Shown: positions 36,488-61,354 of the stretch, one piece after another
How the letters are laid out: each line of letters opens with the position of its first letter
Numbering within the stretch: position 1 is the stretch's first letter
Notes under the pieces: model-generated
Seen by the model: only the letters and a program-made list of their open reading frames with translations
Told to the model about the DNA's origin: nothing
Database searches by the model: none
Source: Cloeon dipterum
Taxonomy: Eukaryota > Arthropoda > Insecta > Ephemeroptera > Baetidae
Direction of reading: 5' to 3'
Length of the DNA stretch: 64,000 nt
Assembly: GCF_949628265.1 (NCBI RefSeq)
Contig: NC_088789.1
Span: 26,095,883-26,159,882, forward strand
Made by a program: the position numbers and the translations under genes

Positions 36488-38454
36488 ATGAGAGTCAAGC
36501 TTTCTTTTGCGGCGTTTCTTCTGCTTCTTCTCAAAGTGATGGCCATAAATCCTGAAAATCAGCGTGCCCATGCGCCCTTCGCAAGTAAGTCACTGAATCC
36601 ATTCTTCCGATAACGCGAGCACCAATCATTTCTCTCTTTGAAGTATGTTCTCGAGAATTACGATCTTTTACCTAATCTCAACAATGGCTTTAGTGTCTGT
36701 GAAAACTTAAATTCGTCCTGGTCCCGGCAAAATTGCGTAACTTTCAACAACCAAACGCGAATTTCCTTGTTGCAAGAAAAGGTCAACAATCAATTCGACA
36801 ATGAAAATTTGGGTGTTTGTTGAACGTTGCGCAATTTTACCGGGACCAGGACGAATTTAAGTATTTTACTTGGCTATGCAGTTCCTGCTTCAGGCTTTTA
36901 TTTTACCATTTTGAATAAATAATAAAGTAGAGCTTTAACAGGCAAACAATTTAGGTTATTTTGCATTGCTTGATTCGTTTGTGAAATTTAGCAAGAGTTT
37001 ATCTCTGCTATGTGCAATAATGATAATTAAATCAGGACCAAGAAAAAGTTAAATTTCAGTCTTTGCCAAATTTATTCAAATATGAAATGATTTTTCACTT
37101 GATTTCGATCTCTTTCGTCAAATTGTAAAATAAATCGTGGTTTTACAGTAGGGAGACACTGCTTGAATAGCATGCAAACTTGGGGACTGATGTTCTCAAT
37201 AATTTAAACGGCAACCCAGCAAATTTTTAAACATAAAATAGCATTGCAATTAAAGATACAAACTTTTGTATTGCTTTACTCTGCATAAAGTTGTGGTAGC
37301 GACGATTGCCAGTAACTGCTCACAAAAAACACAAATTCGAAAGTGCTCCAAAAATTGCTTCACAAATGATAGAACAATTAAAAGTCAACCCTTTGTCAGA
37401 AGTTACAGGCAATCGCCACTGACACAGCGTAAATAGATTATTAAGTTATTATTTGTTATTGTGTCGACAATTTAGCTATTATTTGTTACGTGGAGCATAC
37501 ATTTTTAAAATTAAGCATCATTTTCAAGAAATCAAACAGCAGAAATAGACAGACGTGCGTATTTGTTGAATCCTACATAATAAATTTATGTAGTAAAATG
37601 TTAAACAATTCAAAAAATTAAAAAACGGGCATACAAAATGCATAACTATAAAAATACTGCAAACATTATTAGTTATTTCATTTTAACAGACGTCTTAATG
37701 CAGTGCTGAAAAATTTCGATTGAAACTTAAGGCGACTAAAGAATAATCAAGAATCACGAATAACATTAAAGCAGGATTATCTCATATGAAAAATCTCTAA
37801 TTCCTGTAAAACTATAATTCTACTCTCTGTTAAAAAGCGGAACACCCGCCGTGTGGGGCCTGCCAAACGCGTGCTACGTCTGTCTGATTTACGATGCTGT
37901 CGTTTGCATGTAGTCATATATATCATCCCGAAACCTCTTGTAATTTTGTGTGAGAAATTTGAAACAAAAGCTTTACTCGAATTCCCAATGCTGTGTATTT
38001 TTTCCTAAATAGAAAATGTTAAATTGTTCCAGCTATCTCAAGAACTGCACGGGCCACCAAACAAAACGGAAGGATTTTCGGCTTGTGGGAAAAAATTCGG
38101 CCTGCCAGCTATTTTGGATTTTGGGGAACTTCAGGCTGGCCGAGTTTCACTAATCCAACCGCCGTACACAATCACTTCCACTTTGGACCCAACGGAAACA
38201 ATGGAAACAACGGGAATAGTGGAAACGGGAATGGAAATCACGGAAATGGGAACCACGGAAACGGGAACCATGGAAATCACGGAAATGGAAACAACGGGTA
38301 TTGGAACGGAAACTGGTACGGAAATTGTCCCAGCTGTTCAACTGGCAGGAAAGTCGCAGTGAAACACGCTAAGGCTTCCACCACTAAAAACTCAGGCCAA
38401 AAGACGAAGAGCAATTCGGCGCCAAAGAGGGGTGGATCGTGGTTCATTTTTTAA
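36488..38454 (+). CDS. gene A1, secreted Asn/Gly-rich protein, 172 aa
   Basis: Two exons, 36488-36584 and 38033-38454, joined at phase 1. Exon 1 codes the signal peptide (MRVKLSFAAFLLLLLKVMA) and a short linker. Exon 2 codes a basic start (RTARATKQNGRIFGLWEKIR), an aromatic stretch (SYFGFWGTSGWPSF), AVHNHFHFGPNGNNGNNGNS, then GNGNHGN repeats, a CPSC motif and a Lys/Ser-rich end (KRGGSWFIF). The H-N-H-F-x-F-G-P-N motif is shared with gene A2. Exon 1 lies outside the duplicated block, so its copy B1 lacks it. It looks like an extracellular structural protein; no family name is certain. Confidence 0.75.
36711..36856. mobile_element. TTAA-flanked MITE (piggyBac-like), 146 bp
   Basis: Lies in the A1 intron. 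The ends are inverted repeats of about 45 bp (ATTCGTCCTGGTCCCGG), and TTAA occurs on both sides at 36707-36710 and 36857-36860, the target duplication used by piggyBac-type elements. No coding capacity. Confidence 0.75.
36960..37230 (+). repeat. dispersed repeat, copy in A1 intron
   Basis: Same-strand relative of 1950-2275: GCAATAATG, AAATCAGGACC, CTTGATTTCGATCTC, AAAATAAATCG and CTCAATAATTTA occur in the same order. Confidence 0.5.
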
Positions 38455-38810
38455 AACTCCACTACTTCAATATTATCTTGTTTTATGTGTGTGTTTTGTT
38501 ATTGCAATATCTGTAATGGTATTGAGCTTTACTGTTAAATAAGTAATTAAATACTTGAATATATTGTTTCATTTCCTCACGAAATTCCACTTTTAATATG
38601 TAAAAGCTGTTAATTGTTAAAAACAGTGAATTAATTTTGGACTGTGATATTTCGCTGATCAATAATGGAATTAAAAACCATCAGGTCAATATGAAACCAA
38701 AATATGATAATCTTGAATTCTTTTTCTCACCTCCTTATCGAAATTTTAGCTGTCTTTCATTCTCACGTTAATGTTCGTTCGAGTCCGAGAGTGTTCTACT
38801 TTCCATCTAA

Positions 38811-38817
38811 TATAAAA
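38811..38817 (+). promoter_or_regulatory. TATA box of gene A2
   Basis: TATAAAA 60 bp before the A2 start codon; the surrounding sequence is kept in block B. Confidence 0.65.
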
Positions 38818-38870
38818 TCCTGCTGTACATCGCAGCGGGGCACAAGCTTTCGGACCGTGAGGTGTTCATC

Positions 38871-40228
38871 ATGATTATCGCATCCTCAGCTTTCGTTTTG
38901 CTCTCATTGCTAGCTACTCCTCAACTGATGCTGCAGCTTCCACCACGAGGAATCTACAGCCCTGTCGTAGGTCAGTAAATGTAATAAAACTTACGCATAA
39001 CCATGCGCACGTGCCCAGCTGACAAATTAGAAATTCATTTGTGAGAGCTTAAATTTATGTGACTTTCATCATCAGCTCAGATTCAAGGCAATCAAGTGTG
39101 TGGACGGCGGTTCGCTATGAACAAAAAATCCTCTCTAGCCGTTCGGGCCACGTGCGGTAGATTTTTTTTCTAGAAAAAGGCGAGTCTATCGCCCTCACGA
39201 AAAGGGCAGAGCTCAGGCGTCAATCCAATGCGCTTGCTATAAAATATTTAAATCATTTCATGCTTTAACCGGTTTTTCCACTCTTCCGCAGCAAATAACA
39301 AACATGCAGCAAGAAGGCGTTCCTAAAGCAATATCTCACTGTAGATCAAAGGGACATAAATTCCGATCATTAATTAAATTTTTACAACGCATCAATCATT
39401 AGGATGTCATTAATATTACGTGGGAGGTGCTATTGAACTTTATATAAAATATTTTCATGTTGATCGTACCTAACATTGTATTTTATGTTAAGACTGCAAA
39501 TTCGTGCAATAATGAGTACAGTATGCAATACGCATGATCGGTGTGCTCACCAAGTTGCCTACATTTTCATTCCATTAATAATATGAAGTTTGCAAAATTG
39601 CAATAAGGTGGTACAATTAATAAGTTTCTTGTAATTTATTCAGGAAATGCCAATACTGTACTTCACGACTACTTATTGAAAATTGTGGCCAATCAACCTT
39701 CTCTCAAAAAGAAAGAACAGATTACTCAACTTCCCAATAGTATTTAGATTTCCATATAATATGGTGTTCTTCCTCGAGTCAATCAAATTTTTGAAATAAA
39801 TGTTATACCTCATTCTTAAGTAAAAGTGAATAGGAAGATCAATAACCAAAAGCAACGAAAAAATATATAGAAACGATCAAAAATTGTAAATTAAAATATT
39901 TTCTATTGTTTTTAGAGCCACTGAAAATTAAAAATAAACATGTCCAGCTCTAATGTGTTTTTTTTTTTATTTAAATATTTAATATTTTCGTTATCTTACT
40001 GTGTCAAATGATGAAATTTCAGGAACGGAATTTGTTCACCAAGTCAGCGCCGTAAACGTGCCTCTCGGAGCGCATCTCGAGAAAGGATTGCACTGGAATC
40101 TTCTGTTCAAACCGTATCAACGACCTGCACCACTCCCGCCTTACTCGCATCATCACGTGCAAAACCACTTCTGGATCGCATTTGGACCAAATGAAATGAA
40201 TGGGAATAGTGGGAACAATAGACATTGA
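38871..40228 (+). CDS. gene A2, small secreted His/Pro-rich protein, 101 aa
   Basis: Exons 38871-38970 and 40023-40228, phase 1. Exon 1 codes the signal peptide (MIIASSAFVLLSLLATPQLM) and QLPPRGIYSPVV. Exon 2 codes GTEFVHQVSAVNVPLGAHLE, a Pro/His region (PPYSHHH) and a tail VQNHFWIAFGPNEMNGNSGN. The tail matches the A1 motif HNHFHFGPNGNNGNNGNSGN, so A1 and A2 are probably old paralogues, A2 having lost the long Asn/Gly tract. No known domain; likely extracellular. Confidence 0.72.
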
Positions 40229-40229
40229 A

Positions 40230-40915
40230 TAGAAAGGCCTATTTAATTATTTATTTAAAACTTGTTAGAGTTTAAATGTTTCAATATATAAATAGAGATA
40301 CTTAAATTAAGTCAACTTCCAGAAAATTTGAGATAGCCAAAGGATCACAGGACTTTTAACTCCATTTGGAGGTTGCCCTAATTGTACTTTCAAAAAATAT
40401 AAATTAAAAAACGATTAAAATGCCAGAATATGAAAGTTTCCTCTTTAGTGAGGAGAATAAAATAAATTATAAATAATGATGATATAAACGAACTTGTCTT
40501 AAACGTTAGAAATGCTTCCCTCTAGTGAAAATTTAAAGTTTTTAAAATTTTGTAGCATAATTATGCAATTTTTAGTGGAAAACATCAGGCAAGACTATTT
40601 GCGTGTGTTTTAAAATGTTTTGTCGGTGAGCATCACCCAATTTAACGTTTTTAAAAATTTCTTAAATACCAATTTCCAAAAATAAGTGGCTGATTTATTC
40701 AGATTATTTCATTTGAATGAAAAATTTAAGTCTCATAAACTTTTAACGAGTGGTGAAAAATCACAGCGATAAAATCAAATCAAAAAAGAATTTGGGAGGG
40801 AGTTGACTTTTGAAGAATGGGCGGAGGATCCTTTTCCTCGCGTATTTCTTTGGTTCCCCTCTTCTTTGCTTTTTTGTCCTCCCGAATTCTGCTTTGGAAG
40901 AAATGAACGAAGAGC
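40230..40915. other. spacer between A2 and A3
   Basis: AT-rich non-coding sequence, kept in block B at about 54580-55260. Confidence 0.5.
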
Positions 40916-40919
40916 AAGA

Positions 40920-40927
40920 TATAAAAG
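40920..40927 (+). promoter_or_regulatory. TATA box of gene A3
   Basis: TATAAAAG 82 bp before the A3 start codon; kept at 55264-55271 in block B. Confidence 0.7.
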
Positions 40928-41001
40928 CAGCTGCCTGTTTCACTTTCTATTTCTCTCGCTTCTGCCGATCTTTCGCTCTGAGTTCGCCACAGCGCGCCCC
41001 G

Positions 41002-42770
41002 ATGATGGGGGTGGCGTTGAAAGCTCTCACTCTATCGCTCTTAGCGAGCATACTAGTATTCCACGTGCATGGCGAATCAAGTACACGTAAGTTACTCATT
41101 TATTTTTACTATATATCTAGTGCTCTAAATTTTTTCGTTACTTCCTACTTTGATATTCTGCTCAAAAGTTAAACATATTTTATTTAAATTCGTCTAAAAC
41201 ATGTATTTTTGTACCAACATGCAATTATTACCTTGCCAGAACTAAATAGAAACAAAAACATTCTTTCAGGGCACTCTGATGCCATTGATAATGGTGATCA
41301 AGAGGCATTGTCTAGATCTGCAGGTTGGTTCAAAAATGCATGGCCCAGCAATGAATACAATTACAAACGATTGACCGCTGATGAGCAAATTAACGACTTT
41401 CACGCAGAGCTAAATACCGCTCAGCAAGGCGGTGGAATGGGCTCAAGAATCAACCTCGGCACAGGAGGATCACATCGCAGGAGAGCTCGACAAGCAGATG
41501 GTGAAACCATTGAAATCGATCCTGACATATTCTCCGGAGTCTCTGCACTTGACACGAACCCTGGCAACACTGGCAAGGCAGGTGGCACCGGCAGGCAAGG
41601 CGGCGGCGGCGGCGGCGGCCCAGGTGGAGGCGGCGGCGGCCCAGGCGGCGGCGGCGGCCCAGGAGGCGGCGGTGGTGGCCCAGGAGGAGGCGGCGGCGGC
41701 CCAGGTGGAGGCGGCGGCGGCCCAGGAGGCGGTGGTGGCCCAGGAGGAGGCGGCGGCGGCCCGGGCGGCGGCGGTGGTGGCCCAGGCGGCGGCGGCGGCC
41801 CAGGTGGAGGCGGCGGTGGCCCAGGAGGAGGCGGCGGCGGCCCAGGCGGCGGTGGTGGCCCAGGAGGAGGTGGCGGCGGCCCAGGCGGCGGTGGCGGCCC
41901 AGGTGGAGGCGGCGGCGGCCCAGGTGGAGGCGGCGGCGGCCCAGGAGGCGGCGGCGGCGGTGGCCCAGGAGGCGGCGGCGGCGGCCCAGGTGGAGGCGGC
42001 GGCGGCCCAGGCGGCGGCGGTGGCGGCCCAGGTGGCGGCAGCCCAGGCGGAGGCGGCGGTGGCAGCCCAGGCGGCGGCGGCGGTGGTGGCGGCAGCCAAG
42101 GCTGCAATTGCAACAACGGCAATGGCAACAACTGGAACAATGGCAACAACTGCAACAACGGACACGGAGGTGAATAAGTCTGAAAACGCTTTTAAACAAG
42201 ATGCTCATGTTGAATTGTTTGATGCTAAAATTGAAAATTAAATATATATTTCACTCCAAAAATTTATTTAAAGCAGCTGCTAAATTTAATTTATGGACCG
42301 TGCTATCATAGCCTCTTTCATTTTGAAAATTAAACTACTGCAATCTTAATATTCCAGGCAACGGATTCGGGAGACCCGGATTTGGAAGACCTGGATTCGG
42401 CAGGCCTAACTTCGGTGGATGGAGGCCAGGTGGCTGTGGCGGAAGACCTTCAAGGCCGCCATTTGGACGTCCCCCTGCTTGGGGTTGCAACAGAAATAAC
42501 TTCTTTGGAGTTTCACCCTGCGGATATCCATCGCCTCCTCCGAGGGTGCAATGTAGTTTTATGAGCAATCCATTTGATGACCAATATAGCTATAATAACT
42601 GGGGCTCTTGGGGCTCGTCGGGTTCGTCGGGTTCGTGGAATAACTGGGGTGATTACGATGATTTTGGGGATTCCTGGAATAATAATGGCAACGATAATGA
42701 CGATATTGGGGGGCTTCTTTGTGGCGGCGGGAAAGTTTTTTGCAATGGAAATTACTGTGGATGCGTTTGA
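41002..42770 (+). CDS. gene A3, silk-like GPGGGG repeat protein, 465 aa
   Basis: Exons 41002-41086, 41270-42169 and 42358-42770, both introns phase 1. Residues 1-24 are a signal peptide ([20 protein letters not shown], then HVHG). Residues 30-97 are a charged N-terminal region ([16 protein letters not shown]). RRRAR at 98-102 is a furin-type cleavage site followed by QADGE. Residues about 139-305 are almost only Gly and Pro in PGGGG and PGGGGG units, similar in spirit to spider flagelliform GPGGX. Then comes [20 protein letters not shown]. The last exon codes [20 protein letters not shown], a Cys/Trp/Asn-rich part and [18 protein letters not shown]. Probably an extracellular structural or adhesive protein. 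The antisense Pro-rich frames over the repeat are shadows. Confidence 0.85.
41600..42095. repeat. GC-rich Gly/Pro codon repeat in A3
   Basis: Imperfect tandem array of GGCGGCGGCCCAGGN units with unit lengths of 15-24 bp. The third base varies while the frame is kept. Confidence 0.85.
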
Positions 42771-42885
42771 AATGAAAAGGAGCAAGCTTATTATTTCTGA
42801 AATATTCATCGATTTATTGCTCAAGGCTGCTTCCGTTAAAGGAGTCGATTATTGTGTAATTGTTTGTAAGAATGTGCTGATATGA

Positions 42886-42891
42886 AGAATA
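42886..42891 (+). terminator. poly(A) signal of gene A3
   Basis: AATAAA about 115 bp after the stop codon, kept in block B near 59149. Confidence 0.55.
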
Positions 42892-43149
42892 AAAAGTGTA
42901 GAACGTTATAAAATAAAGTATTTTCCATTATGTATTCTCCCTTAAGTTATTTGTTTGATTTTGCAAAATAATTTACTTTCCTTACACAAAATAAAATGAC
43001 AATTTACTAGACAATCAGATTTTAGCAAAAGAAATTAAAAATGAAAAGGCGGAATTTATTTAAAACTTGCGGAAATTTATCTCGAAAATTTTCAAATAAT
43101 AACCAGAAAAATCACACAAAAAACAGCATTTTAAAAAGCAAAAAAATCC

Positions 43150-43370
43150 TACCTCCTGCGACGCATTTGCCATAAGGGCAAAAGAAAAATTCCGTGTCTC
43201 TTTTGTCCTTGAAATCGGACGTCAGGTCGTTCAACTTTTGACGACAACCCTGAACCAAGAGGCTTGTTTGCCGAAACCGCTCCCACCGGCGATCGTTTTT
43301 GAGTCGGATATTGATTGTGCCTGCCAGCTCACGGTCGCAAACTGGCCTTTCAAAGATGGGAATGCAACCA
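43150..43370 (-). other. conserved antisense reading frame block, copy A
   Basis: A GC-richer block between A3 and A4, well kept in block B (59470-59660). On the minus strand it is open, with several Cys (FERPVCDRELAGT, then VQGCRQKLNDLTSDFKDKRD, then FCPYGKC). FERPVC followed by a later Cys faintly recalls a Kazal-type exon. No start codon, signal peptide or partner exon was found. Copy B is shifted out of frame near its end. It may be a relic exon or a regulatory block. Confidence 0.3.
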
Positions 43371-43374
43371 AGTC

Positions 43375-43930
43375 AGGAAACGCTTCCTAGGATTTACGAA
43401 ATCTGAGAAAAGTTTGAATAAACTAAATGCATATTAAGGATTCGAGAGTCGAGAGCCGTATAAATTTATTTTCAGTGCACCAATCTGGACACAAAAAAGC
43501 AAAGCCACTTAAAATTTCAGTTTCAATTGCAGATTTAAAAAATTACTTCAAAATGTTAATAGATTAAAAAAGGAACAATATATTACAATTTTAATGACAG
43601 AAAGTATACATTGGGGCGAAAAAATTACTAGTAACACCATGTCGTGAGCCATTAAAGATATTCTATTCTATGAAGAAAACATATGAATTGGTGAGTGCTA
43701 AATTTCACATCAAATTAATTTTGGTAAAAAAAAAATACAGAACACCCACTTGCTGCCAGAGTCCGAGGGATTTTTTTACCATTTTTCCCTACTCCTTTCT
43801 ACCACTCCTCTGTGAATATTCGCTAAAAGAAGGGAACCAGTGAGAATGGAAGTGGAAAAGAGGCGGCGAAAATCCCTTCTCGTTCTCCTTCTCACCAAAG
43901 CTCGTTTTATTCTTTGAGAAGCAGCTCCCA
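43375..43930. other. spacer upstream of A4
   Basis: Non-coding and kept in block B. A purine-rich stretch at about 43830-43900 precedes the likely A4 leader. No clear TATA box. Confidence 0.4.
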
Positions 43931-43946
43931 AGGGTTGACAACGATG

Positions 43947-44005
43947 GTAAGCTTATCATTTAACTTGGCACTGGATACTATTTTATTTTTTATGCAATAT
44001 TCTAG
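43947..44005 (+). other. 59-nt intron in the A4 leader
   Basis: ATG/GTAAGC donor and TTCTAG/GG acceptor. The same 59-nt intron occurs in copy B at 60202-60260. Splicing would place a three-codon upstream frame (ATG GGC TCA, then TAA) ahead of the main start, in both copies. Confidence 0.5.
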
Positions 44006-44038
44006 GGCTCATAACAGCGCCAGAAAATCAATTTAGAT

Positions 44039-45177
44039 ATGGATTTGCCCATAATCGTAGCAGTTGCTCTTATTTTCAACACTGTCGTCTGCACTGACGT
44101 CAACAACGTCCATCAAAACAACAGCGTCGTCGAAGATGTTGTTACACGTGAGTATTTTGCAACATTGTTAACTCAGTTAAGAAAAAATTTGATACAAATA
44201 GCCGTTTTTTTCTCAATCTATTTGAAATGGCTTTGAATTATGTGATGAGAAAAAATATTTTTTCTGATGGTTACATTCTCTATTCTATTTCAGTCCCGTT
44301 TACTGAAAAACCAAGCCAGCAAAATGCGGGAATCAGGCATTACCTAAAGGCTGATTTCCCACCAAGAATTAGACCCTCAAATAGAGCTTCGCCATCAGAA
44401 AAGACACAAGCTGAAAAGTTTGCGGCAGAATTTCAACAATGGGCTGACTACAACTACAAAAGAAGACCCCCGTCAGGAAATGGTCCTTCACCTGGCGGTA
44501 ATAACCCTGGAGGGGATAATAACCCAGGAGGGGGTAATAACCCAGGTGAGGGTGATACCCCAGGAGGGGGTAATATCCCTGGAGGGGGTTATAACCCTGG
44601 AGGAGGCAGTAATCCCGGAGGGGGTGGTTACCCTGGAGATGGCAACTATCCCAGAGGGGGTTATAACCCTGGGGGAGGCAATAATCCCGGAGGGGGTGGT
44701 TACCCTGGATGGGGCAATAACCCTGGAGGAGGCAATCCCCCTGGAGGGGGTGGTTACCCTGGATGGGGTAATTATCCCGGAGGGGGTTATAACCCTGGGG
44801 GAGGCAGTAATCCCGGAGGGGGTGGTCACCCTGGTTGGGGTAATAATCCTGGAGGGGGTGGTAACCCTGGAGGTGGTGGTCACCCTGGCTGGGGAAATAA
44901 CCCTGGAGGATGTGGATGTTCTAGAAATGGGCCTGCATGTGAGTCTTGCAACAGCTGTTGTTCGTGCTGTAATTCGTGCAGCCAATGCTCTTCTGGTAGA
45001 TGTCAGCCCCCACCTCCGCCTCCTTGTCAAATGAACAGAAATAATTATTACGGTCGTGATCTGCATTCAGGGTTTGAAGACTGGGGAAATCGATGGGCAG
45101 ACAGAAATAACTGGAACTATCCACACTATGATAGCAATTATTACGGTCGTGGACTAGACTACGATTCATATTATTAG
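44039..45177 (+). CDS. gene A4, secreted NPGGG-repeat Cys-rich protein, 330 aa
   Basis: Exons 44039-44147 and 44294-45177, phase 1. The signal peptide is in residues 1-19 (MDLPIIVAVALIFNTVVCT), followed by DVNNVHQNNSVVEDV. Exon 2 codes TEKPSQQNAGIRHYLKADFP, a helical EKFAAEFQQW segment, then about 25 imperfect N-N-P-G-G-G units with G-Y-P-G-W-G variants. A dense Cys cluster follows (CESCNSCCSCCNSCSQCSSG), then PPPPPPC and a Tyr/Asn/Trp/Asp-rich tail ending GRGLDYDSYY. AATAAA is at 45363. It is probably a disulfide-linked extracellular structural protein secreted with A3. The Cys cluster and the tail are identical in B4, while the repeat number differs. Confidence 0.83.
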
Positions 45178-45412
45178 GCTCGCAAACTTTTAAAGGTGAT
45201 ATTTGTCGGGCATTGGAAATGCAAAATACTTACATGCTTATTTTTTTCCCAATTGTAAACCGGACCTAGATGTATCAAGAACCAATTGATAGGTGTGATT
45301 GTAGTTTATAATAAAAAAATTAAATATGTATTTGTTTTGTGTATTGCAAGGCTGTTGTACTGAATAAACGCGTCAATAAAATTACGTATTTTTTGTTCAT
45401 TTCACCTTTTTC

Positions 45413-45500
45413 AATTTCTTCCCTCTTAGGAATATCGGTTTGAATAACGTAATAAATCACAAATAATGACTTGTCGATTGGCGGGGAAAAAGTGGCAAGC
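45413..45500. repeat. 87-bp direct repeat, right copy
   Basis: Matches 35874-35960. It begins exactly where the match between blocks A and B ends. Confidence 0.65.
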
Positions 45501-45517
45501 AACTCACATTGTCAGCA

Positions 45518-45625
45518 GGCCCGGATAGCCCATCGGGCGAATCGGGCAATGGCCCGGTGGGCAGCGGCCCAAGTGGGCCGCCGGGCCGGCCACCAGACCG
45601 GCCGCAGGACTGGCCGCCCGCCGAC
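45518..45625. mobile_element. possible hAT element end fragment
   Basis: CAGGCCCGGATAGCCCATCGG and the following GGGCAATGGCCCGGTGGGC resemble the GC-rich ends of some hAT elements. No matching opposite end or target duplication was found, so this is only a fragment if real. Confidence 0.3.
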
Positions 45626-45799
45626 ACTTGATTAACTCAATTCCTTAAAATAGCACGTCTCGTTGTGCGCCCCGCGATCTGGGTACACAAACACCCAGAC
45701 TGAAAATTTCAGTGTTATTTTATATTTTGTTTTGAAAAATTCTTCCAAATTTTCAAAAAAAAAAAAATACCACACATTTTTGATTTTTCAGGTTCTTTG

Positions 45800-46415
45800 C
45801 AACTCTAAATCTCGGGTGCTAACCATCAGAAATGCATAAACTACCCACCGTTAGAGTTGACCCAACCTCCACTAACCAGCCAAAGTGTTTAGGGGGTAAT
45901 AACCCTCATTCCCTTTTAACCCCATTGCTTTAATTTTGAAAAAAATATTTTAGCATGCTTCCTCTGGGCTTTAACATAGTTTAAATTACCCAACACTACT
46001 TCTTAACTACCACTACGTCCCTTATTTTAAAATTAATACAGACAAATATATTTTAAAAGTAAAAACACAAGTTAATACATTAGTTTTGTGTTTTTACTTT
46101 TTTTGAAGTTTTTTTTTGTATTACCACTTACAATTAGGGATGGAAGGAAAGCACCTCTAAGCCCATTAGCTGGTCAGGGGAGGTGGAGATTAGTCCAACG
46201 GTGTTAATATTAGCAATTTTAATGGTTAAAACCCGAGATTTCGAGTGTGCAAAATTCGGAAAGTCAAAAAATATAGTGATTTTTGTGTTGATCCAACAGT
46301 TTAAACTCCAAAATCTCGAGTTTTAACCATCACAATTGAAAAAATTTCCCACCGTTAGACTCGTCTCGACCTTCCCTAAGCAGCTAAAGTATTTACGGGG
46401 TGATTATGAGTCATA
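45800..46415. repeat. imperfect palindrome with nested copies
   Basis: A unit (AATCTCGGGT, AACCATCA, CCCACCGTTAGA, ACC, AGCTAAAGT) occurs forward at about 45805-45915, inverted at 46165-46250 and forward again at 46305-46410. The centre has a perfect stem, AAAGTAAAAACACAA with TTGTGTTTTTACTTT, at about 46055-46106. This looks like a MITE with long arms plus a further partial copy. Confidence 0.6.
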
Positions 46416-46419
46416 TATT

Positions 46420-47832: not shown

Positions 47833-47874
<42 letters not shown>

Positions 47875-48400
47875 TTTTCGACGAACAACTACGTCTTTAA
47901 AAATCCATTTAAACAATATGCATCTTTTGCAAACGGGCTTCACCTTTCTCGTGAGCGCATGACGTCGTTACTAATCCGCAACAAACAAGTTTATTCACAA
48001 CATGCAAATAGCGGGTTTGCACGCGTCCACTTTGCAATGAAAATGAAGAGTTATCTATCGCCGCAGGCAGTGTAACAACTTGCATCATTACCTTCCGCGG
48101 CCGCGTGTCACGTGTGAAACAATAACCCACACTCATAAGTGCACACGATCCTGGCGTCTTTCACCATATTAATTAGAATGACGCCCGATCGGCTGCATTA
48201 TTATTATTATTTTCCCCGCACTCGACGGTTGTACGCTCACCTGGCTGGATGTGCTCTTTTATTAGCACTGATAACATTTTTGCCCGACTGCCGCTATTCT
48301 TCGGACCTTGGCTGCCATTATCTTTTCAATGGACTAATATTGACTTGATTGCCGGCGGACGCAGTCAATACCCGTGTAGTTTCTCTCGCGGAGAACCGCT
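46420..48400. other. intergenic, with a TA microsatellite
   Basis: AT-rich non-coding sequence. A (TA)n run lies at about 47834-47871. GC content rises toward 48400, before the next gene. Nothing else was recognised. Confidence 0.45.
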
Positions 48401-48412
48401 CCGGCGTCCACG

Positions 48413-50676: not shown

Positions 50677-51047
50677 GTATGTTTAAATTACGCCATTACG
50701 TTAAAAGAAAAAAAGGAATTTTGAACGTTTTTTCTCTAAAATAATACTGTCATCATTCTAATTAATGCAGCCTTTATGGCCAACATTCCTTAATATTTAA
50801 TTATTCGAATAACATTAAAGCAGGATTATCTCATATGAAAAATCTCTGTGTCTGTAAAACTATAATCCTACTCTCTGTTAAAAAAACGAAACACCTGCCG
50901 TGTGGAGCCCGCCAAACGCGTGCTACGTCTCTCTGATTTACGATACTGTCATTGGCATGTAGCCATATATAATCCCGAAACCTCTTGTAATTTTGAAGCA
51001 AGCTTTACTCGATTTTTTCCTAAATAGAAAATGTTAAATTGCTTCAG

Positions 51048-51468
51048 CTATCTCAAGAACTGCAAGGGCCACCAAACAAAACGGAAGGATTTTCGGCTTG
51101 TGGGAAAAAATTCGGCCTGCCAGCTATTTTGGATTTTGGGGAACCTCAGGAATCGGCGGCTGGCAGAGTTTTAGCAATCCAAGCGCTGTACACAATCACT
51201 TCCACTTTGGACCCAACGGAAACAATGGAAACAACGGGAATAGTGGAAACGGGAATGGAAACCACGAAATGGGAACCATGGAAATCACGGAAATGGAAAC
51301 AACGGGTATTGGAACGGAAACGGGTACGGAAGCGGAAATTGTCCCAGATGTTCAACTGGCAAGAATGTCCCAGTGAAACACGCTAAGGCTTCCACCACTA
51401 AAAACTCAGGCCAAAAGACGAATAGCAATTCGGCGCCAAAGAGGGGTGGATCGTGGTTCATTTTTTAA
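51048..51468 (+). pseudogene. B1, truncated frameshifted copy of A1
   Basis: Copy of A1 exon 2 with its acceptor kept but no exon 1 or promoter, because the duplication began inside the intron. A 9-bp insertion adds three codons, and a lost base in the GNGNH tract (near 51269) shifts the frame, giving a stop at 51374-51376 instead of the ancestral stop at 51466-51468. The frame-shifted tail is Thr/Glu-rich. Almost certainly non-functional. Confidence 0.75.
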
Positions 51469-51829
51469 AACTCCCCCACTTTAATTATTATCATGTGTGT
51501 GTGTTTTGTTATCGCAATATCTGTAATGGTATTGAGCTTTACTGTTAAATAAGTAATTAAATACTTGAATATATTGTTTCTTTTCCTCACAAAATTCCAC
51601 TTTTAAAATGTAAAGATTGCAAATTGTTAAAAACAAAGAATTAATATTTTGGTCCATGATATTTCACTGATCAGTAACGGGAGTAAAATGTTGGAAAAGT
51701 ATCAGGTCAATATGAAAGCCAAATATAATGATCTTGAATTCTTTTTCTCTCCTCCCTATCGAAATTTTAGCGGTCTTTCATTCTGACGTTAATGATCGTG
51801 CAATTCCGAGTGTTCTACTTTCCATCTAA

Positions 51830-51835
51830 TATAAA
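51830..51835 (+). promoter_or_regulatory. TATA box of B2
   Basis: TATAAA in the same position as in A2. Confidence 0.55.
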
Positions 51836-52028
51836 TTCCTGCTGTACATCGCAGCGGGGCACAAGCTTTTGGACCGTGAGGTGTTCATCATGGTTATCGC
51901 ATCCTCTGCTTTCGTTTTGCTCTTATTGCTTGCTGCATCTACTTCTCAACTGATGCTGCAGCTTCCACCACGAGGAATCTACAGCCCTGTCGTAGGTCAG
52001 TAAATGTAATAAAACTTACGCATAACCA

Positions 52029-52439
52029 TGCGCACGCAGGGTTCGCCAATTTTGCAATGCGCAAAAATGCACCACTGTTGTTTTGCGCAAAAAACCGGCT
52101 GGAAAAACGCACCAGTCTTGGGTTTTTCCGCATTTTTCCGAATTTAACCCAAAAATAGTCAATTTTCGCTACAAAAGAGTCTGAAATTTTAGAAAATTAC
52201 GTTGAGTGTTAAAATTTTCAGTGTTTTGGTGAAACCAGTGGCTCTAATACTGATTTTGGTGATTTTGAAAAATCCCTACTTTTGGTCATCCACTATGAGA
52301 TTTTTTTATTTTCCAAAAGAATGCATGTGTTTCGGAAACATGCGCAAAATTGCAGAAAAACCCGCAAAAAACAGTTTTTTTTGCAATGCAGTGGGTTTTA
52401 TCCGGTAAAATGCGGGTTTTTGCGAACCCTGTGCGCACG
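52029..52439. mobile_element. hAT-type MITE, 395 bp, with 8-bp target duplication
   Basis: The element spans 52037-52431, starting CAGGGTTCGCCAATTTTGC and ending GGGTTTTTGCGAACCCTG (terminal inverted repeats). The flanking duplication TGCGCACG lies at 52029-52036 and 52432-52439. Block A has the uninterrupted site at about 39004-39011, proving the insertion is later than the duplication. No transposase. Confidence 0.88.
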
Positions 52440-53168
52440 TGCCGAGCTGACAGATTAGAAATTCATTTGGGATGCTTGTGTGTGGCTTTCTTCGTCCGCT
52501 CAGGTTCAAGGCAATCAAGTGTGTGGACGGTGGTTCGTTTTATTAAAAATAATGTTTCTTCTCTAGCCGTTCGGGCCACGTGCTTTTCTTCCTAGAAAAA
52601 GGCGAGTCTATCGCCCTCATGAAAAGGGCAGAGCTCAGACATCAATCCAATGCGCTTGCTATAAAATATTTAAATCATTTTATGCTTTAACCGGTTCTTC
52701 CACTCTTCCGCAGCAAATAACAAACATGCAGCAAGAAGTCGTTCCCAAAAACAATAATAGATAAAAGGGACATAAATTCTAATCATTAATTAAATATTTG
52801 ATAATACATCAATCATTAGGGTGTCATTAATTATTTCATGAGAGGTGCTATTGAACTTTATATATAGAAAATTTATTTACTTTATAAAACAAATACTGGA
52901 CTTCACGACTACTCAAAGTAAATTGTGACCAATCAACCTTCTCTCAAAAAGAAAGAACAGATTACTCAACTTCCCGATAGTTTTTAGATGTTCTTAAAAT
53001 GTGGTGTTCAATTTTTTTTAATAATTGTTACCTCATTCTTAAGTAAAAGTGAGTAGGAAGATCAATCACCATAAGCAATGGCAAAATAGATAGAAACGAT
53101 TCATAATTGTAATTCAAAATAATTTCCATCGTTTTTAGAGCCACTGAAAATTAAAAATAAACATGTGC

Positions 53169-54340
53169 AGCTGTGTCGTGACATGACTCGGCCTGATTTG
53201 CCCCAACATGCGCCTGCAGATGCAGACCTAAGGCGCGGCGCGCGGCCGCCGGACGCTCCGGCCGCTACCCAAGAACCACACCGTTTTATGTATTAAATTG
53301 GTCTTTCTGTAACGGAAAGACGTGGCTCGGTAACAAGTAACCCCTCTCGCTGTCGTGAGCGTTGGAGGGGTATGCTCTGAAGGAGCAAATTTAATAATAC
53401 ATCAGGTGGGGAATACATTTGGCCGCTGCATTTCTTTATTTTTCCTTAAACGACAAGCAAGCACTGTTGAACTTAAAGTAACTTTGGCGCCCCAAACTGT
53501 ATTTTTCCCATCACTGGCTGGCACGTGATACCCCAAGCGGTGTCACACCACCCCCCGAGCTTCGAGGCGGCTTTCGCCGGCTCGGACCGCAGACGTTTTC
53601 CTGGCCTCTGCCGAGCAGCATCTCTCCTGCGCCTCTGCCTACTAGTTGCCCCTCTTTTGCCTTGTCGGTCACAGTAAGAATTGATATTTTATTTTCAAAG
53701 TCTCGTCCACGTTAACTTATTAACTTCAGTAACGTAATTATTGCAAATTTCGCGATCGAAAGTCCTTTTCTCTCTTTTCTCTCTGTTAGAGTCACACTCT
53801 GAACAATAAATCAAACAACTTAATTTCTAAGCCCAATTCTCGGCTGTTTGTCTTTGTCTTGACCAGCAATATAATTAAAGGAACGATAAAGTAATTTGTT
53901 TATTTCATCATTAATTAAAGGCTCACTTAAGGAGCAGCCTTTTTCTGTCTTAAAGCTCATTAAATATTTTTTAAAGTGATATTACCGTGGCATGTTCTGA
54001 TTATTCTCGGCTTGTGGCTTCGCGTGGCTCTCGACGTTGAATAATTAAGATTGGCTCCGGGAATTATCAATTGTTAACGAGGAAATCCTAGTTTGGGCCC
54101 TCATCCTAGCCGATGAAGGAATTAGAGCAAAATAGTAAGAATTAAATAATATCTGAGAAACGATTGATCATGAGAGACAGCCGCCGCGACTATGAGTTAA
54201 GAGGGATGGCTCGGCGGCAGCGAGAGGGCTCGGCGAGGCCAAAAAGTCGCTCCAGTTCTGCGGGCTGTAAGCTAAGGGGTTGGAGGGCACTAATCATGTA
54301 TTTTTGGTATAGCTGTGTTGCAGATATTCGCAACAAGCTG
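53169..54340. mobile_element. solo LTR of an LTR retroelement, about 1.16 kb
   Basis: The LTR spans 53174-54335, begins TGTCGTGACA and ends TTCGCAACA, and is flanked by the 5-bp duplication AGCTG. Block A has the unoccupied site (AGCTC, near 39946). Only one LTR remains and no internal genes, so this is a fossil left by recombination between two LTRs. The family (Gypsy-like or BEL-like) cannot be fixed from the LTR alone. It is younger than the A/B duplication. Confidence 0.8.
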
Positions 54341-55263
54341 TAATTTGTGTTTTTATTTAATTATTTAATATTTTCGTTATCTTACTGTATCAAATAATGA
54401 AGTTTCAGGAACAGAATTTGTTCATATAGTCAGCGCCGTAAACGTGCCGCTCATCTCCGCATCACGAGAAAGGATTGCTCTCTCACCTTCTGTTCAAACC
54501 GTATCATCAGCGACCGGCTTCACTCCAGCCTCATCCGGTGCACAACCACTTCTGGATTTGATCTGGACAAAATGAAATGAACGGGAAAAGTGGGGAAAAA
54601 AGGCTTATTTAATTATTTATTCAAAACTCGTTAGAGTTTAAAAGTTTCAATATAACAAATAGAGATGCTTAAATTAATTATGTAATTTGAAGTAAGTCAA
54701 ATTCCAGAAAATTTGAGAGTTGGCCCAAATTGCTCTTTAAAAATATATTACCAAAAATCTGTTCCAAAGTAGAAGAGAATGCAAGAATGTGAAGTTTCCT
54801 ATCTAGTGAGAAGAGTAAAATAAATAAATTATAGATGAAGATATAATCGGACTTGTCTTTATCGTTAGAAATGCTCTTGTAAAAATTTCAAGTTTGTAAA
54901 TTTGCAGCATAATTAGGCAATTTTTAAGTGGAAAACAACAGGCAAGACTATTTGCGTGTGTTTTAAAATGTTTTGTCGGGAAGCGTCACCCAAATTAACG
55001 AAATTAAAAATACGAATTTCCAAAAATAATTGGCCGTTTTATTCAGATTATTTCATTTAAATCATATTTTTAGACTTATAAGCTTTTAAAGGATTGACGA
55101 AAAATCACAGCGAAAAAATCAAATCAAAAAAGTATTTGGGAGGGAGTTGACTTTTGGAGAATGGGCGGAGGATCCTTTTCCTCGCGTATTTCTTTGGTTC
55201 CCCTCTTCTCGGCTTTTTTGCTCTCCCGAATTCTGCTTTGGAAGAAAAGAACGAAGAGTAAGA

Positions 55264-55271
55264 TATAAAAG
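55264..55271 (+). promoter_or_regulatory. TATA box of gene B3
   Basis: TATAAAAG, the same position and context as in A3. Confidence 0.7.
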
Positions 55272-55345
55272 CAGCTGCCTCATTCACTTTCTGTTTCTCT
55301 TGCTTCTGCCGGTCTTTCGCTCTGAGTTCGCCGTAGCGCACCCCA

Positions 55346-58300
55346 ATGATGGGGTTGGCGTTAAAAGCTCTCACTCTATCGCTCTTAGCGAGCATACTAG
55401 TATTCCACGTGCATGGCGAATCAAGTACACGTAAGTTACTCATTTATTTTTACTATATATCTAGTGCTCTAAATTTTCTCGTTACTCCCTACTTTGATAT
55501 TCTGCTCAAAAGCTAAACATATTTTATTTAAATTCGTCTACAACATGTATTTTTGTACCAACATGCAATTATTAATTTGACAGAACTAAATGGAAACCAA
55601 CACGTTCTTTCAGGGCACTCTGATGCCATTGATAATGGTGATCAAGAGGCATTGTCTAGATCTGCAGGTTGGTTCAAAAATGAATGGCCCAGCAAAGAAT
55701 ACAATTACAAACGATTGACCGCTGATGAGCAAATTAACGACTTTCACGCAGAGCTAAATTCCGCTCAGCAAGGCGGTGGAATGAGCTCAAGAATCAACCT
55801 CGGCACAGGAGGATCACTTCGCAGAAGAGCTCGACAAGCCGATGGTGAAACCATTGAAACAGATCCTGACATATTCTCCGGAGTTTCTGCACTTGACACG
55901 AACCCTGGCAGCACTGGTAAGGCAGGTGGCACCGGCAGGCAAGGCGGCGGTGGTGGCGGCGGCGGCGGCGGCCCAGGAGGCGGTGGCGGTGGCCCAGGAG
56001 GCGGCGGCCCAGGAGGCGGTGGCGGTGGCCCAGGAGGCGGCGGCGGCGGTGGCGGTGGCCCAGGAGGCGGCGGCGGCGGCCCAGGAGGCGGTGGCGGTGG
56101 CCCAGGAGGCGGCGGCGGCGGTGGCGGTGGCCCAGGAGGCGGCGGCGGCCCAGGTGGAGGCGGCGGCGGCCCAGGAGGCGGTGGCGGTGGCCCAGGAGGC
56201 GGCGGCGGCGGCCCAGGAGGCGGCGGCCCAGGAGGCGGTGGCGGTGGCCCAGGAGGCGGCGGCGGCGGTGGCGGTGGCCCAGGAGGCGGCGGCGGTGGCC
56301 CAGGAGGCGGCGGCGGCGGCCCAGGAGGCGGCGGCCCAGGAGGCGGTGGCGGTGGCCCAGGAGGCGGCGGCGGCGGCCCAGGAGGCGGTGGCGGTGGCCC
56401 AGGAGGCGGCGGCGGCCCAGGTGGAGGCGGCGGCGGCCCAGGCGGCGGCGGTGGCGGCCCAGGAGGCGGCGGCGGCCCAGGAGGCGGCGGCGGTGGCCCA
56501 GGAGGCGGCGGCGGCGGCCCAGGAGGCGGTGGCGGTGGCCCAGGAGGCGGCGGCGGCGGTGGCGGTGGCCCAGGAGGCGGCGGCGGCGGCCCAGGAGGCG
56601 GTGGCGGTGGCCCAGGAGGCGGCGGCGGCGGTGGCGGTGGCCCAGGAGGCGGCGGCGGCGGCCCAGGAGGCGGCGGCCCAGGAGGCGGTGGCGGTGGCCC
56701 AGGAGGCGGCGGCGGCGGTGGCGGTGGCCCAGGAGGCGGCGGCGGCGGCCCAGGAGGCGGCGGCCCAGGAGGCGGTGGCGGTGGCCCAGGAGGCGGCGGC
56801 GGCGGTGGCGGTGGCCCAGGAGGCGGCGGCGGCCCAGGTGGAGGCGGCGGCGGCCCAGGAGGCGGTGGCCCCGGAGGCGGCGGCCCAGGAGGCGGCGGCC
56901 CAGGAGGCGGCGGCGGTGGCCCAGGAGGCGGCGGCGGTGGCCCAGGAGGCGGCGGCGGCCCAGGAGGCGGTGGCCCCGGAGGCGGCGGCCCAGGAGGCGG
57001 TGGCCCCGGAGGCGGCGGCGGTGGCCCAGGAGGCGGCGGCGGTGGCCCAGGAGGCGGCGGCGGTGGCCCAGGTGGAGGCGGCGGCGGTGGCCCAGGAGGC
57101 GGCGGCCCAGGAGGCGGCGGCCCAGGAGGCGGCGGCCCAGGAGGCGGTGGCCCCGGAGGCGGTGGCCCAGGAGGCGGCGGCGGCCCAGGAGGCGGCGGCG
57201 GCGGCCCAGGAGGCGGTGGCCCAGGAGGCGGTGGCCCCGGAGGCGGCGGCCCAGGAGGCGGCGGCCCAGGAGGCGGCGGCGGTGGCCCAGGAGGCGGCGG
57301 CGGCCCAGGAGGCGGCGGCCCAGGAGGCGGTGGCGCCGGAGGCGGTGGCCCAGGAGGCGGTGGCCCCGGAGGCGGCGGCCCAGGTGGAGGCGGCGGCGGT
57401 GGCCCCGGAGGCGGCGGCCCAGGAGGCGGCGGCCCAGGAGGCGGCGGCCCAGGAGGCGGCGGCCCCGGAGGCGGCGGCCCAGGAGGCGGCGGCCCAGGAG
57501 GCGGTGGCGCCGGAGGCGGTGGCCCAGGAGGCGGTGGCCCCGGAGGCGGCGGCCCAGGTGGAGGCGGCGGCGGTGGCCCCGGAGGCGGCGGCCCAGGAGG
57601 CGGCGGCCCAGGAGGCGGCGGCCCAGGAGGCGGCGGCCCCGGAGGCGGCGGCCCAGGTGGAGGCGGCGGCGGCCCAGGAGGCGGTGGCGGTGGCCCAGGA
57701 GGCGGTGGCCCAGGAGGCGGCGGCCCAGGAGGCGGCGGCCCAGGAAGCGGCGGCGGTGGCCCAGGAGGCGGCGGCGGCGGCGGCCCAGGTGGAGGCGGCG
57801 GCGGCCCAGGTGGAGGCGGCGGCGGTGGCCCAGGTGGAGGCGGCGGCCCAGGTGGAGGCGGCGGCGGTGGCCCAGGAGGCGGCGGCGGCGGTGGCCCAGG
57901 TGGAGGCGGCGGCGGCCCAGGTGGAGGCGGCGGCGGTGGCCCAGGAGGTGGTGGCCCCGGAGGCGGCGGCCCAGGTGGAGGCGGCGGCGGTGGCCCAGGA
58001 GGCGGCGGCCCAGGAGGTGGTGGCCCAGGAGGCGGCGGCGGCGGCCCCGGAGGTGGCGGCCCAGGAGGCGGCGGCGGTGGCCCAGGAGGCGGCGGCGGCC
58101 CAGGAGGCGGTGGCCCAGGAGGCGGCGGCCCAGGAGGCGGCGGCCCAGGAGGCGGTGGCCCAGGAGGCGGTGGCCCCGGAGGCGGCGGCCCAGGAGGCGG
58201 CGGCGGCCCAGGAGGCGGTGGCCCAGGAGGCGGTGGCCCCGGAGGCGGCGGCCCAGGTGGAGGCGGCGGCGGTGGCCCCGGAGGCGGCGGCCCAGGAGGC

Positions 58301-59043
58301 GGCGGCCCCGGAGGCGGCGGCGGTGGAGGTGGCGGAAGCCCAGGCGGCGGCGGCGGCGGTGGCAGCCAAGGCTGCAATTGCAACAACGGCAATTGGAACA
58401 ACTGGAACAATGGCAACAACTGCAACAACGGACACGGAGGTGAATAAGTCTGAAAACGCTTTTAAACAAGATGCTCATGTTGAATTGTTTGATGCTAAAA
58501 TTGAAAATTAAATATATATTTCACTCCAAAAATTTATTTAAAGCAGCTGCTAAATTTAATTTATGGACCGTGCTATCATAGCCTCTTTCATGTTGAAAAT
58601 TAAACTACTGCAATCTTAATATTACAGGCAACGGATTCGGGAGACCCGGATTTGGAAGACCCGGATTCGGCAGGCCTAACTTCGGTGGATGGAGGCCAGG
58701 TGGCTGTGGCGGAAGACCTTCAAGGCCGCCATTTGGACGTCCCCCTGCTTGGGGTTGCAACAAAAATAACTTCTTTGGAGTTTCACCCTGCGGATATCCA
58801 TCGCCTGCTCCGAGGGTGCAATGTAGTTTCATGAGCAATCCATTTGATGACCAATATAGCTATAATAACTGGGGCTCTTGGGGTTCGTCGGGTTCGTGGA
58901 ATAACTGGGGTGATTACGATGATTTTGGGGATTCCTGGAATAATAATTTCAACGATAATGGTAACGATAGTGACGACATTGGGGGGCTTCTTTGTGGCGG
59001 GGGAAAAGTTTTTTGCAATAGAAATTACTGTGGATGCGTTTAA
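55346..59043 (+). CDS. gene B3, giant silk-like GPGGGG repeat protein, 1108 aa
   Basis: Exons 55346-55430, 55614-58439 and 58628-59043; both introns are phase 1 as in A3 and the whole frame is open. The signal peptide, [16 protein letters not shown] region, RRRAR cleavage site and QADGE are kept. The Gly/Pro part runs from about residue 139 to 945, over four times the A3 tract, with units [12 protein letters not shown] and [10 protein letters not shown] and rare single Ala or Ser. The C-terminal exon keeps [20 protein letters not shown] and [16 protein letters not shown]. Keeping one frame through about 2.4 kb of repeat while unit number changes suggests selection. Probably an extracellular fibre, glue or coat protein. 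Repeat length should be treated with care, as such arrays are hard to assemble. Confidence 0.83.
55943..58362. repeat. expanded Gly/Pro codon repeat in B3
   Basis: About 2.4 kb of CCAGGAGGCGGCGGN-type units. A 174-bp higher-order unit marked by a rare Ala codon (GGCGCCGGA) at about 57331 and again at 57505 shows internal block duplication. Confidence 0.85.
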
Positions 59044-59469
59044 AGTGAAAAAGAGCACGTTTATTATTGCTGAAATATCGTTCAAGGCTGCTTCCGTTAA
59101 AGGAATCGATTGTTGTGTAATTGTTTGTAAGAATGTGCTGATATGAAAAATAAAAAGTGTAGACAATCTACCACATGTAGACAGTTACAAAACAAAGTAT
59201 TTTCCATTATGTATTCTCCCTTAAGTTATTTGTTTGATTTTGCAAAACGATTTACTTTTCCTTACACAAAATTAAATGGCAATTTGCTAGATAATCAGAT
59301 TTTTGCAAACAGAAAACTCCAAATAAAAATAACAGTTTAGAACTAAATCTTGATAATTTTTTCTTTGAAATGATATCAAATTTTAAAAAATGTATCTCGA
59401 AATTTTTCAAATAATAACCAGAAAAGTCACAAAAAACATTTTAATAAGCAAAAAATTCAACCTCCTGCG

Positions 59470-59660
59470 ACGCACTTGCCATAGGGGCAAAAGGTGTGGC
59501 TTGGAAAATTTCGTGTCTCTCTTGTCCTTGAAATCGGACGTCAGGTCGTTCACCTTTTGACGACAGCCCTGAACCAAGAGGCTTGTTCGCCGAAACCGCT
59601 CCCACCGGCGATCGTTTTTGAGTCGGATATCGATTGTGCCTGCCAGCTCACGGTCTTTTG
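59470..59660 (-). other. conserved antisense reading frame block, copy B
   Basis: Match of 43150-43370. The minus-strand frame DRELAGTIDIRLKNDRRWER to KDKRDT is kept, but an insertion after it puts FCPYGKC out of frame, and the upstream FERPVC part is deleted. Relic exon or regulatory block. Confidence 0.3.
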
Positions 59661-59664
59661 TTTG

Positions 59665-60190
59665 AATAAACTAATCGCATATTTAGGAGTCGAGAGCAGT
59701 ATAAATTTATTTTCAGTGCACCAATCTGGACACAAATGATTTTGAGCTAAAAGAGCAAAGCCACTTAAAAATTTTAGTTTCAATTTTGCAGATGTAAATT
59801 TCAAAATGTTTAAAGATTAAAAAAGGAACACTATTTAACAATTTTAATGATTAAAAGTATTCATTGGAGGAGAAAAAATGCCTAGTAACACCATGTCCAA
59901 AGTCATTAAAGTTATTCTATTCTATAAAGAAAACACGCATGAATTGGTGATTGGTAAATTTCACATCAAAAAGATTTTGGTAAAAAAAAAATACAACACC
60001 CACTTGCTGCCAGAGTCCGAGGGATTTTTTCACCATTTTTCCCTACTCCTCTCTACCCCTCCTCTGTGAATATTCGCTAAAGAGAAGGGAAAAAGTGAGA
60101 ATGGAGGTGGAAAATAGGCGGCGAAAATCCCTTCTCGTTCTTCATCTCACCAAAACTCGTTTTATTCTTTGAGAAGCAGCTCCAAAGAGT
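59665..60190. other. spacer upstream of B4
   Basis: Non-coding, collinear with 43440-43940. Confidence 0.45.
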
Positions 60191-60201
60191 TAACGACGAT
60201 G

Positions 60202-60260
60202 GTAAGCTTATCATTTAACTTGGCACTGGATACTATTTTCTTTTTTATGTGATAATCTAG
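60202..60260 (+). other. 59-nt intron in the B4 leader
   Basis: Same donor (ATG/GTAAGC), acceptor (CTAG/GG) and length as 43947-44005; the three-codon upstream frame (ATG GGC TCG TAA) is kept. Confidence 0.5.
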
Positions 60261-60291
60261 GGCTCGTAACAGCGCCAGAAAATCAATTAAG

Positions 60292-61117
60292 ATGGATTCG
60301 CGCATAGTCGTAGCAGTTGCTCTTATTTTAAACACTGTCGTTTGTGCTGACGTCAACAATGTCCATCAAAACAACAGCGTCGTCGAAGATGTTACACGTG
60401 AGTATTTTGTGACATAGTTATCTCAGTTAAGTTAAAAATTTGTTACAAATAGCCGTTTTTTCTCAATCTATTTAAAAATGGCTTCGAATTATGTGATGAC
60501 CAAAATAAAATATTTTTTGTTCTGATGGTTAAATTCTTTATTCCATTTCAGGCCCGTTGACTGAAAAACTAAGCCAGCAAAATGCGGGAATCAGGCATTT
60601 CCTAAAGACTGATTTCCCACCAAGAATTGGACCTTTGCAATCAGAAAAGACACAAGCTGAAAATTTTGCGGCAGAATTTCAACAATGGTATGACTACCAC
60701 TACGGAAATAGGCCTTCACCCGGTGGTAATCAACCTGGAGGAGGCAATCCCCCTGGAGGGGGTGGTCACCCAGGCTGGGGTAATAACCCTGGGGGAGGCA
60801 GTAATCCCGGAGGGGGTGGTCACCCTGGCTGGGGTAATAACCCTGGAGGAGGTGGATGTTCTAGAAATGGGCCTGCATGTGAGTCTTGCAACAGCTGTTG
60901 TTCGTGCTGTAATTCGTGCAGCCAATGCTCTTCTGGTAGATGTCAGCCCCCACCTCCGCCTCCTTGTCAAATGAACAGAAATAATTATTACGGTCGTGAT
61001 CTGCATTCAGGGTTTGAAGACTGGGGAAATCGATGGGCAGATAGAAATAACTGGAACTATCCACACTATGATAGCAATTATTACGGTCGTGGACTAGACT
61101 ACGATTCATATTATTAG
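60292..61117 (+). CDS. gene B4, secreted NPGGG-repeat Cys-rich protein, 223 aa
   Basis: Exons 60292-60397 and 60552-61117, phase 1. The signal peptide MDSRIVVAVALILNTVVCA is followed by DVNNVHQNNSVVEDV. The N-terminal TEKLSQQNAGIRHFLKTDFP and FAAEFQQW parts are kept. The repeat is reduced to about seven units, against about 25 in A4. The Cys cluster (CESCNSCCSCCNSCSQCSSG), PPPPPPC and the Tyr-rich tail are identical to A4. The contrast between a changing repeat and a fixed tail points to function in the tail, or to recent sequence exchange. AATAAA is at 61304. Confidence 0.83.
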
Positions 61118-61303
61118 GGTCGCAAATTTTTAAAGGTGATATTTGTCGGGCATTGGAAATGCAAAATACTTACATACTTATTTTTTCCCAATTGTAAACC
61201 GGACCTAGATGTATCAAGAACCAATTGATAGGTGTGATTGTAGTTTATAATAAAAAAAAACTATTGATGTATTGGTTTTATGCATTGCAAGGCTGTTGTA
61301 CTG

Positions 61304-61309
61304 AATAAA
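61304..61309 (+). terminator. poly(A) signal of gene B4
   Basis: AATAAACGCGTCA, as after A4. Confidence 0.55.
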
Positions 61310-61354
61310 CGCGTCATTAAAATTACGTATTTTTTGTTCATTTCACCTTTCTCA

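Follow-up and report, generated by a model that had tools for sequence, protein, structure and literature searches.

The segment from inside intron 1 of gene A1 to just past gene A4 is duplicated in tandem on contig C4 of the mayfly Cloeon dipterum, within the window analysed here (the whole stretch of 64,000 bp, C4:26,095,883–26,159,882). The first copy is referred to as block A (genes A1–A4) and the second as block B (genes B1–B4). The locus is a case of ordinary gene turnover in an unusual protein set, and its duplication history is read here together with six genes (A1–A4, B3 and B4) that, judged from their predicted products, probably encode one secreted extracellular matrix. The genome comprised 190,111,064 bases in 10 contigs (five of 33–43 Mb and five of less than 1 Mb). 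Positions are counted from the first base of the window, and this numbering is also used for C4 sequence outside it.

Tandem duplication of the gene cluster

The initial annotation had described two collinear blocks on the same strand with matching spacers and had proposed a dot plot of the window against itself. This comparison, run as a self-comparison, contained both diagonals, and re-alignment agreed with it (E-values of the paired pieces from 5e-87 to 0). The blocks and their paired pieces were as follows:

Block A, 37757–45413, plus strand: duplicated segment (self-comparison, re-alignment)
Block B, 50806–61354, plus strand: second copy (self-comparison, re-alignment, joint sequence)
A/B pair, 37757–39011 / 50806–52036, same strand (self-comparison)
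A/B pair, 39004–39446 / 52432–52864, same strand (self-comparison)
A/B pair, 39652–39949 / 52892–53172, same strand (self-comparison)
A/B pair, 39958–42083 / 54344–56475, same strand (self-comparison)
A/B pair, 41581–43336 / 57791–59655, same strand (self-comparison)
A/B pair, 43412–44627 / 59660–60855, same strand (self-comparison)
A/B pair, 44782–45413 / 60722–61354, same strand (self-comparison)

Ungapped identity in seven re-aligned pieces, from which the long arrays were left out, was 0.931, 0.885, 0.883, 0.874, 0.941, 0.892 and 0.974, and the identity of the spacers was 77–96% per 150-column bin, with a single exception (60%). The most similar piece (44917–45413 / 60857–61354) lies at the end of A4/B4 and had an identity of 97.4%, whereas the values elsewhere were 87–94%; gene conversion or constraint is perhaps responsible for this higher likeness. 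The flank of A upstream of 37757 had no match beside B, the sequences after 45413 and 61354 differed, and A1 exon 1 (36488–36584), which lies outside the duplicated block, had no B partner in the self-comparison. Block B is longer than block A because it contains repeats of about 0.4 kb (52036–52432) and 1.2 kb (53172–54344) as well as a longer B3 array. No N bases were found in the window or in 100 kb on either side, and hence no marked scaffold gap is present at the A–B joint. Lying collinearly and in the same orientation on a single chromosome, the two copies represent a segmental tandem duplication.

The joint between the blocks

The spacer between the blocks consists mostly of an inverted, truncated duplicate of a scramblase gene, which the initial annotation did not contain:

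Scramblase fragment, 46410–50805, plus strand: inverted copy of C4 sequence with a truncated scramblase gene (source 120601–125934; Pfam PF03803)

Its source lies about 70 kb downstream on C4 and belongs to a tandem series of at least three minus-strand scramblase genes (C4:26,204,532–26,217,474). The identity of copy and source was 93.8% across 1380 aligned bases and 96.8% across 2937. The copy is without the last coding exon, which in the source gene occupies 120346–120519, 82 bp beyond the copied edge; a family search between 50805 and the window end gave no match to the source positions of this exon. The joint is blunt, with source sequence up to 50805 and A sequence from the next base, and no base is shared or extra. 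Thus, as in a templated insertion, the spacer was copied from elsewhere and is joined directly to B. The rest of the spacer (45413–46410, approximately 1 kb) has a different source, half of it matching a repeat at −19862. Both a tandem duplication with templated insertion and a later insertion that removed the start of B1 fit these data. The later insertion is slightly favoured because the scramblase piece is less diverged from its source (3.2% and 6.2%) than the A/B pieces are from each other (2.6–12.6%).

Genes of blocks A and B

The coding features of both blocks were as follows:

A1, 36488–38454, plus strand: exons 36488–36584 (signal-like) and 38033–38454; 172 aa, open spliced frame with a GT-AG phase-1 intron
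A2, 38871–40228, plus strand: exons 38871–38970 and 40023–40228; 101 aa, His/Pro-rich, spliced frame
A3, 41002–42770, plus strand: exons 41002–41086, 41270–42169 and 42358–42770; 465 aa, spliced frame
A4, 44039–45177, plus strand: exons 44039–44147 and 44294–45177; 330 aa, spliced frame
B1 remnant, 51048–51468, plus strand: exon 2 only, frameshifted, without exon 1
B2, 51890–54575, plus strand: exon 1 (51890–51995) open, exon 2 (from 54409) frameshifted relative to A2
Dispersed repeat of about 1.2 kb in the B2 intron, 53172–54344, plus strand (repeat search)
B3, 55346–59043, plus strand: exons 55346–55430, 55614–58439 and 58628–59043; 1108 aa, 11 Cys
B4, 60292–61117, plus strand: exons 60292–60397 and 60552–61117; 223 aa, short NPGGG array

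A1–A4 have open frames, and each of their five coding introns is a phase-1 GT-AG intron. A1 is rich in Asn (15.7%) and Gly (15.1%). In A3, the dibasic site RRRAR occurs together with 11 Cys and a 165-aa Gly/Pro array, whose 23 Pro residues mostly follow one another at intervals of 7 and 6. A4 has an NPGGG array, with a Pro spacing of mostly 6, followed by a Cys-rich tail (13 Cys in all). The composition of the products and the first exons of the four genes, signal-like as judged by eye, agree with the earlier description of a secreted-protein cluster, the products being of low complexity and rich in Gly, Asn and Pro. TATA boxes are located 106 bp (A1), 60 bp (A2, TATAAAA) and 82 bp (A3, TATAAAA) upstream of the ATG, and those of B2 and B3 are at the same distances as in A2 and A3.

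A motif of the HNHF..FGPN type is common to A1 (VHNHF..HFGPN) and A2 (VQNHFWIAFGPN), and the local alignment score of the two proteins (63) was reached by none of 1000 shuffles (best shuffle 60). The shared motif suggests that A1 and A2 are probably related to each other, a point absent from the initial annotation. Homology is not claimed for A3 and A4, whose scores were reached by 39 (N-parts) and 12 (C-parts) of 1000 shuffles, or for A1 and the C-part of A3 (131 of 1000).

The initial annotation had listed B1–B4 as the counterparts of A1 exon 2 to A4. Their order and strand hold and B3 and B4 are open, as are A1–A4, but B1 is broken and B2 is frameshifted. The remaining B2 frame (90 aa) keeps the first half of A2 and has lost its C-terminal half together with the A1/A2 motif, so that B2 may be dead or altered. 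Its intron carries both repeats: the 1.2-kb element had at least 77 match pieces in the genome (the best 40 of 210 candidates being scored), and the 0.4-kb element has further copies near −85888 and 97511. The Gly/Pro array of B3 (807 aa, 125 Pro) is about five times as long as that of A3, whereas the B4 array is shorter than that of A4, with the last 86 aa of the two proteins identical. Thus, after the duplication the B3 array grew and the B4 array shrank. The broken and frameshifted genes and the changed array lengths are in line with the quick turnover proposed earlier for the cluster. Several fates of duplicates (truncated and frameshifted genes, an inserted repeat, one lengthened and one shortened array) can be compared side by side at one locus. 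If the genes are expressed, the A3/B3 and A4/B4 pairs offer a built-in comparison of array length change with the end domains fixed.

Homology searches

In an exon-by-exon protein search of the 190-Mb genome, in which only the best candidates were scored, confident matches made up 2 of 3 for A1, 2 of 2 for A2, 2 of 3 for the A3 N-part, 2 of 2 for A3 exon 3 and 4 of 8 for the ends of A4 (two places); no confident copy of the four proteins was found outside A and B. The weak matches at C2:27478744 (E = 1.64), at C4:4425229 (E = 1.09) and at four further places in the genome (E = 0.175–6.19) were attributed to chance. No Pfam family was matched by the A or B frames searched.

No relative of solved structure was found for A3 exon 3 or A4. 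The match of the A3 N-part to 7rdr ("circular tendon repeat protein"; E = 4.1e-5) covered 19 residues, with no stretch passing alone, and was also attributed to chance. A literature search found no work on glycine-rich mayfly silk with genome data.

Constraint, function and alternative explanations

In the A3/B3 N-part (138 codons, 6.0 synonymous changes), the synonymous rate dS was 0.063 and the nonsynonymous rate dN was 0.026; in exon 3 with about 20 preceding codons (153 codons, 6.5 synonymous changes), the values were 0.068 and 0.015, respectively, giving a dN/dS range of 0.23–0.41. In the A4/B4 tail, 86 of 86 amino acids were identical, with 1 synonymous change in 86 codons. A3/B3 and the A4/B4 tail thus look constrained or homogenised, whereas the A4/B4 N-part does not.

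According to the preferred reading of the tandem duplication, the scramblase fragment, arriving with the duplication or afterwards, would have removed B1 exon 1 and its promoter. Each of the six proteins would be exported by its predicted signal peptide, with the A3/B3 and A4/B4 Gly/Pro chains remaining disordered and extensible and being cross-linked by the Cys-rich ends, and the small A1 and A2 may act as partner proteins. A furin-like protease might cut A3/B3 at RRRAR and free an N-terminal piece. An extracellular matrix is suggested by the predicted secretion in combination with the Cys-rich ends and with Gly/Pro chains that are expected to be disordered. As to its tissue, cuticle is tentatively preferred over egg coat, and egg coat over glue or silk, each of them being possible rather than probable. 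If expressed, the set would represent an unnamed group of Gly/Pro-rich structural proteins in a probably early-branching winged insect. A more speculative version, which seems unlikely, is that the four components form an extracellular elastomer or adhesive possessed by the mayfly line and by no other insects, with B3 evolving a fivefold array and A1 and A2 kept single and intact.

Several observations weigh against the matrix reading. Signal peptides and protease site alike were assigned by eye, and inspection of the 200 bp next to the ATG revealed no TATA box for A4 or B4. The structure prediction for the A3 N-part was poor (mean predicted local distance difference test score 54), too poor for a structure search. 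Since none of the six frames of the B3 array is interrupted, its openness proves little. In the A4/B4 N-part (91 codons, 7.0 synonymous changes), dS was 0.125 and dN was 0.123, and the dN/dS of 0.98 indicates weak constraint, all ratios given here being rough because the synonymous changes are few (1 to 7 per comparison).

This last value, the broken B1, the frameshifted B2 and the fivefold difference in array length between A3 and B3 would also be expected if the arrays were selfish minisatellites in dying genes and neither block gave a functional protein; however, dN is lower than dS outside the arrays in A3/B3, the 86-aa tail of A4/B4 is identical, and the splice sites and most TATA boxes are retained, which makes this explanation improbable. 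Only slightly better placed, and still doubtful, is the idea that the products are secreted Gly-/His-rich antimicrobial defence peptides encoded near lectin-like genes. Three ricin-type beta-trefoil genes do lie at 26237–32077, and just downstream of the window begins a tandem array in which one peptide has HHG repeats, but A3 (465 aa) and B3 (1108 aa) have Cys-rich ends and matched no Pfam peptide family, and antimicrobial peptides are usually far shorter than 465–1108 aa.

The least probable explanation is that A and B are two haplotypes placed end to end by assembler error. Haplotypes in large insect populations can differ by several percent, and a divergence of this order would be compatible with such an error; however, neither flank of A has anything in common with the corresponding flank of B in the window, and at the joint, which is free of N, an inverted copy of sequence located 70 kb away is bluntly attached.

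Comparison with known structural proteins

The GPGGG motif is carried by mussel preCol-P, according to PMC13052691. A3/B3 resemble this byssal protein as secreted structural proteins with GPGGG-type elastin-like repeats, although no His-rich ends were seen in them and they belong to an unrelated organism; the likeness is one of motif. The collagen Gly-X-Y core of mussel preCols had no counterpart, as no Pfam Collagen match was obtained in A3, B3, A4 or B4.

Spider flagelliform and MaSp2 silks carry GPGGX repeats, and the arrays described here are similar in having Gly/Pro turn-forming repeats between non-repetitive ends, but X is nearly always Gly in them, and spidroin end domains gave no Pfam match in A3 or B3. 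Insect cuticle protein and chorion clusters likewise consist of tandem small secreted genes with a signal peptide in exon 1 and duplicate quickly. The cluster studied shares these features, but without a chitin-binding, chorion or vitelline Pfam match; the Rebers–Riddiford domain (chitin_bind_4) of CPR cuticle proteins was not matched in the A or B frames searched.

Genomic neighbourhood and host genome

Local same-strand duplicates (at least 300 bp, at least 80% identity) occupied 62,518 bases over 264 kb and were densest at about 20–90 kb. Glycine-rich, lectin-like, His/Gly-repeat and scramblase genes occur there in tandem copies. Since tandem arrays abound in this neighbourhood, a duplicated cluster is nothing out of the ordinary here; it is the protein set that is unusual.

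A second tandem array (25053–35597) repeats, at 70–91% identity, one glycine-rich and one ricin-type beta-trefoil gene, with three PF14200 matches. The array just downstream of the window (about 65,000–90,900) encodes short signal-like peptides, one with HHG repeats, and includes a pair of 1124-bp sequences of 100% identity (72570–73693 / 79077–80200).

The presence of Orco in the genome supports an insect origin of the DNA. Across 54 Orco residues, the chains 8v00_A, 6c70_A and 9vqo_B do not differ among themselves, and 45 of these residues matched them; such a difference is expected if the insect branches outside them. Genes such as OBP260 are named in the Cloeon paper (PMC7250882); an exon-by-exon search for the odorant-binding-protein family gave 1 match among 4 candidates, which does not in itself speak for Cloeon. 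The COX1 search gave a single piece of 46 positions, located on C2 and scoring under the cut-off of the family, and thus no mitochondrial contig. No (TTAGG)n run was present in the first 120 bases of six 250-base pieces (both ends of C1, C2 and C4); in PMC8977481, this repeat is described as lacking in mayflies, dragonflies and flies. For Cloeon dipterum, PMC6446309 and PMC7250882 give 2n = 10 and an assembly of 180 Mb, respectively. The genome is thus in keeping with a baetid mayfly such as Cloeon or Neocloeon, although there are also flies with a comparable genome size and number of chromosomes; the finding of a duplication holds whatever the species.

A tRNA scan found none. On the minus strand, 17133–19586 is an 817-aa open frame built from repeat units of approximately 111 bp and with a high Glu and Ser content, which matched Pfam Thyroglob_assoc (44.1 bits, E = 2.8e-11) with no single stretch passing. 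A full-length 5S rRNA match was identified by Rfam at 12489–12608 (45.4 bits).

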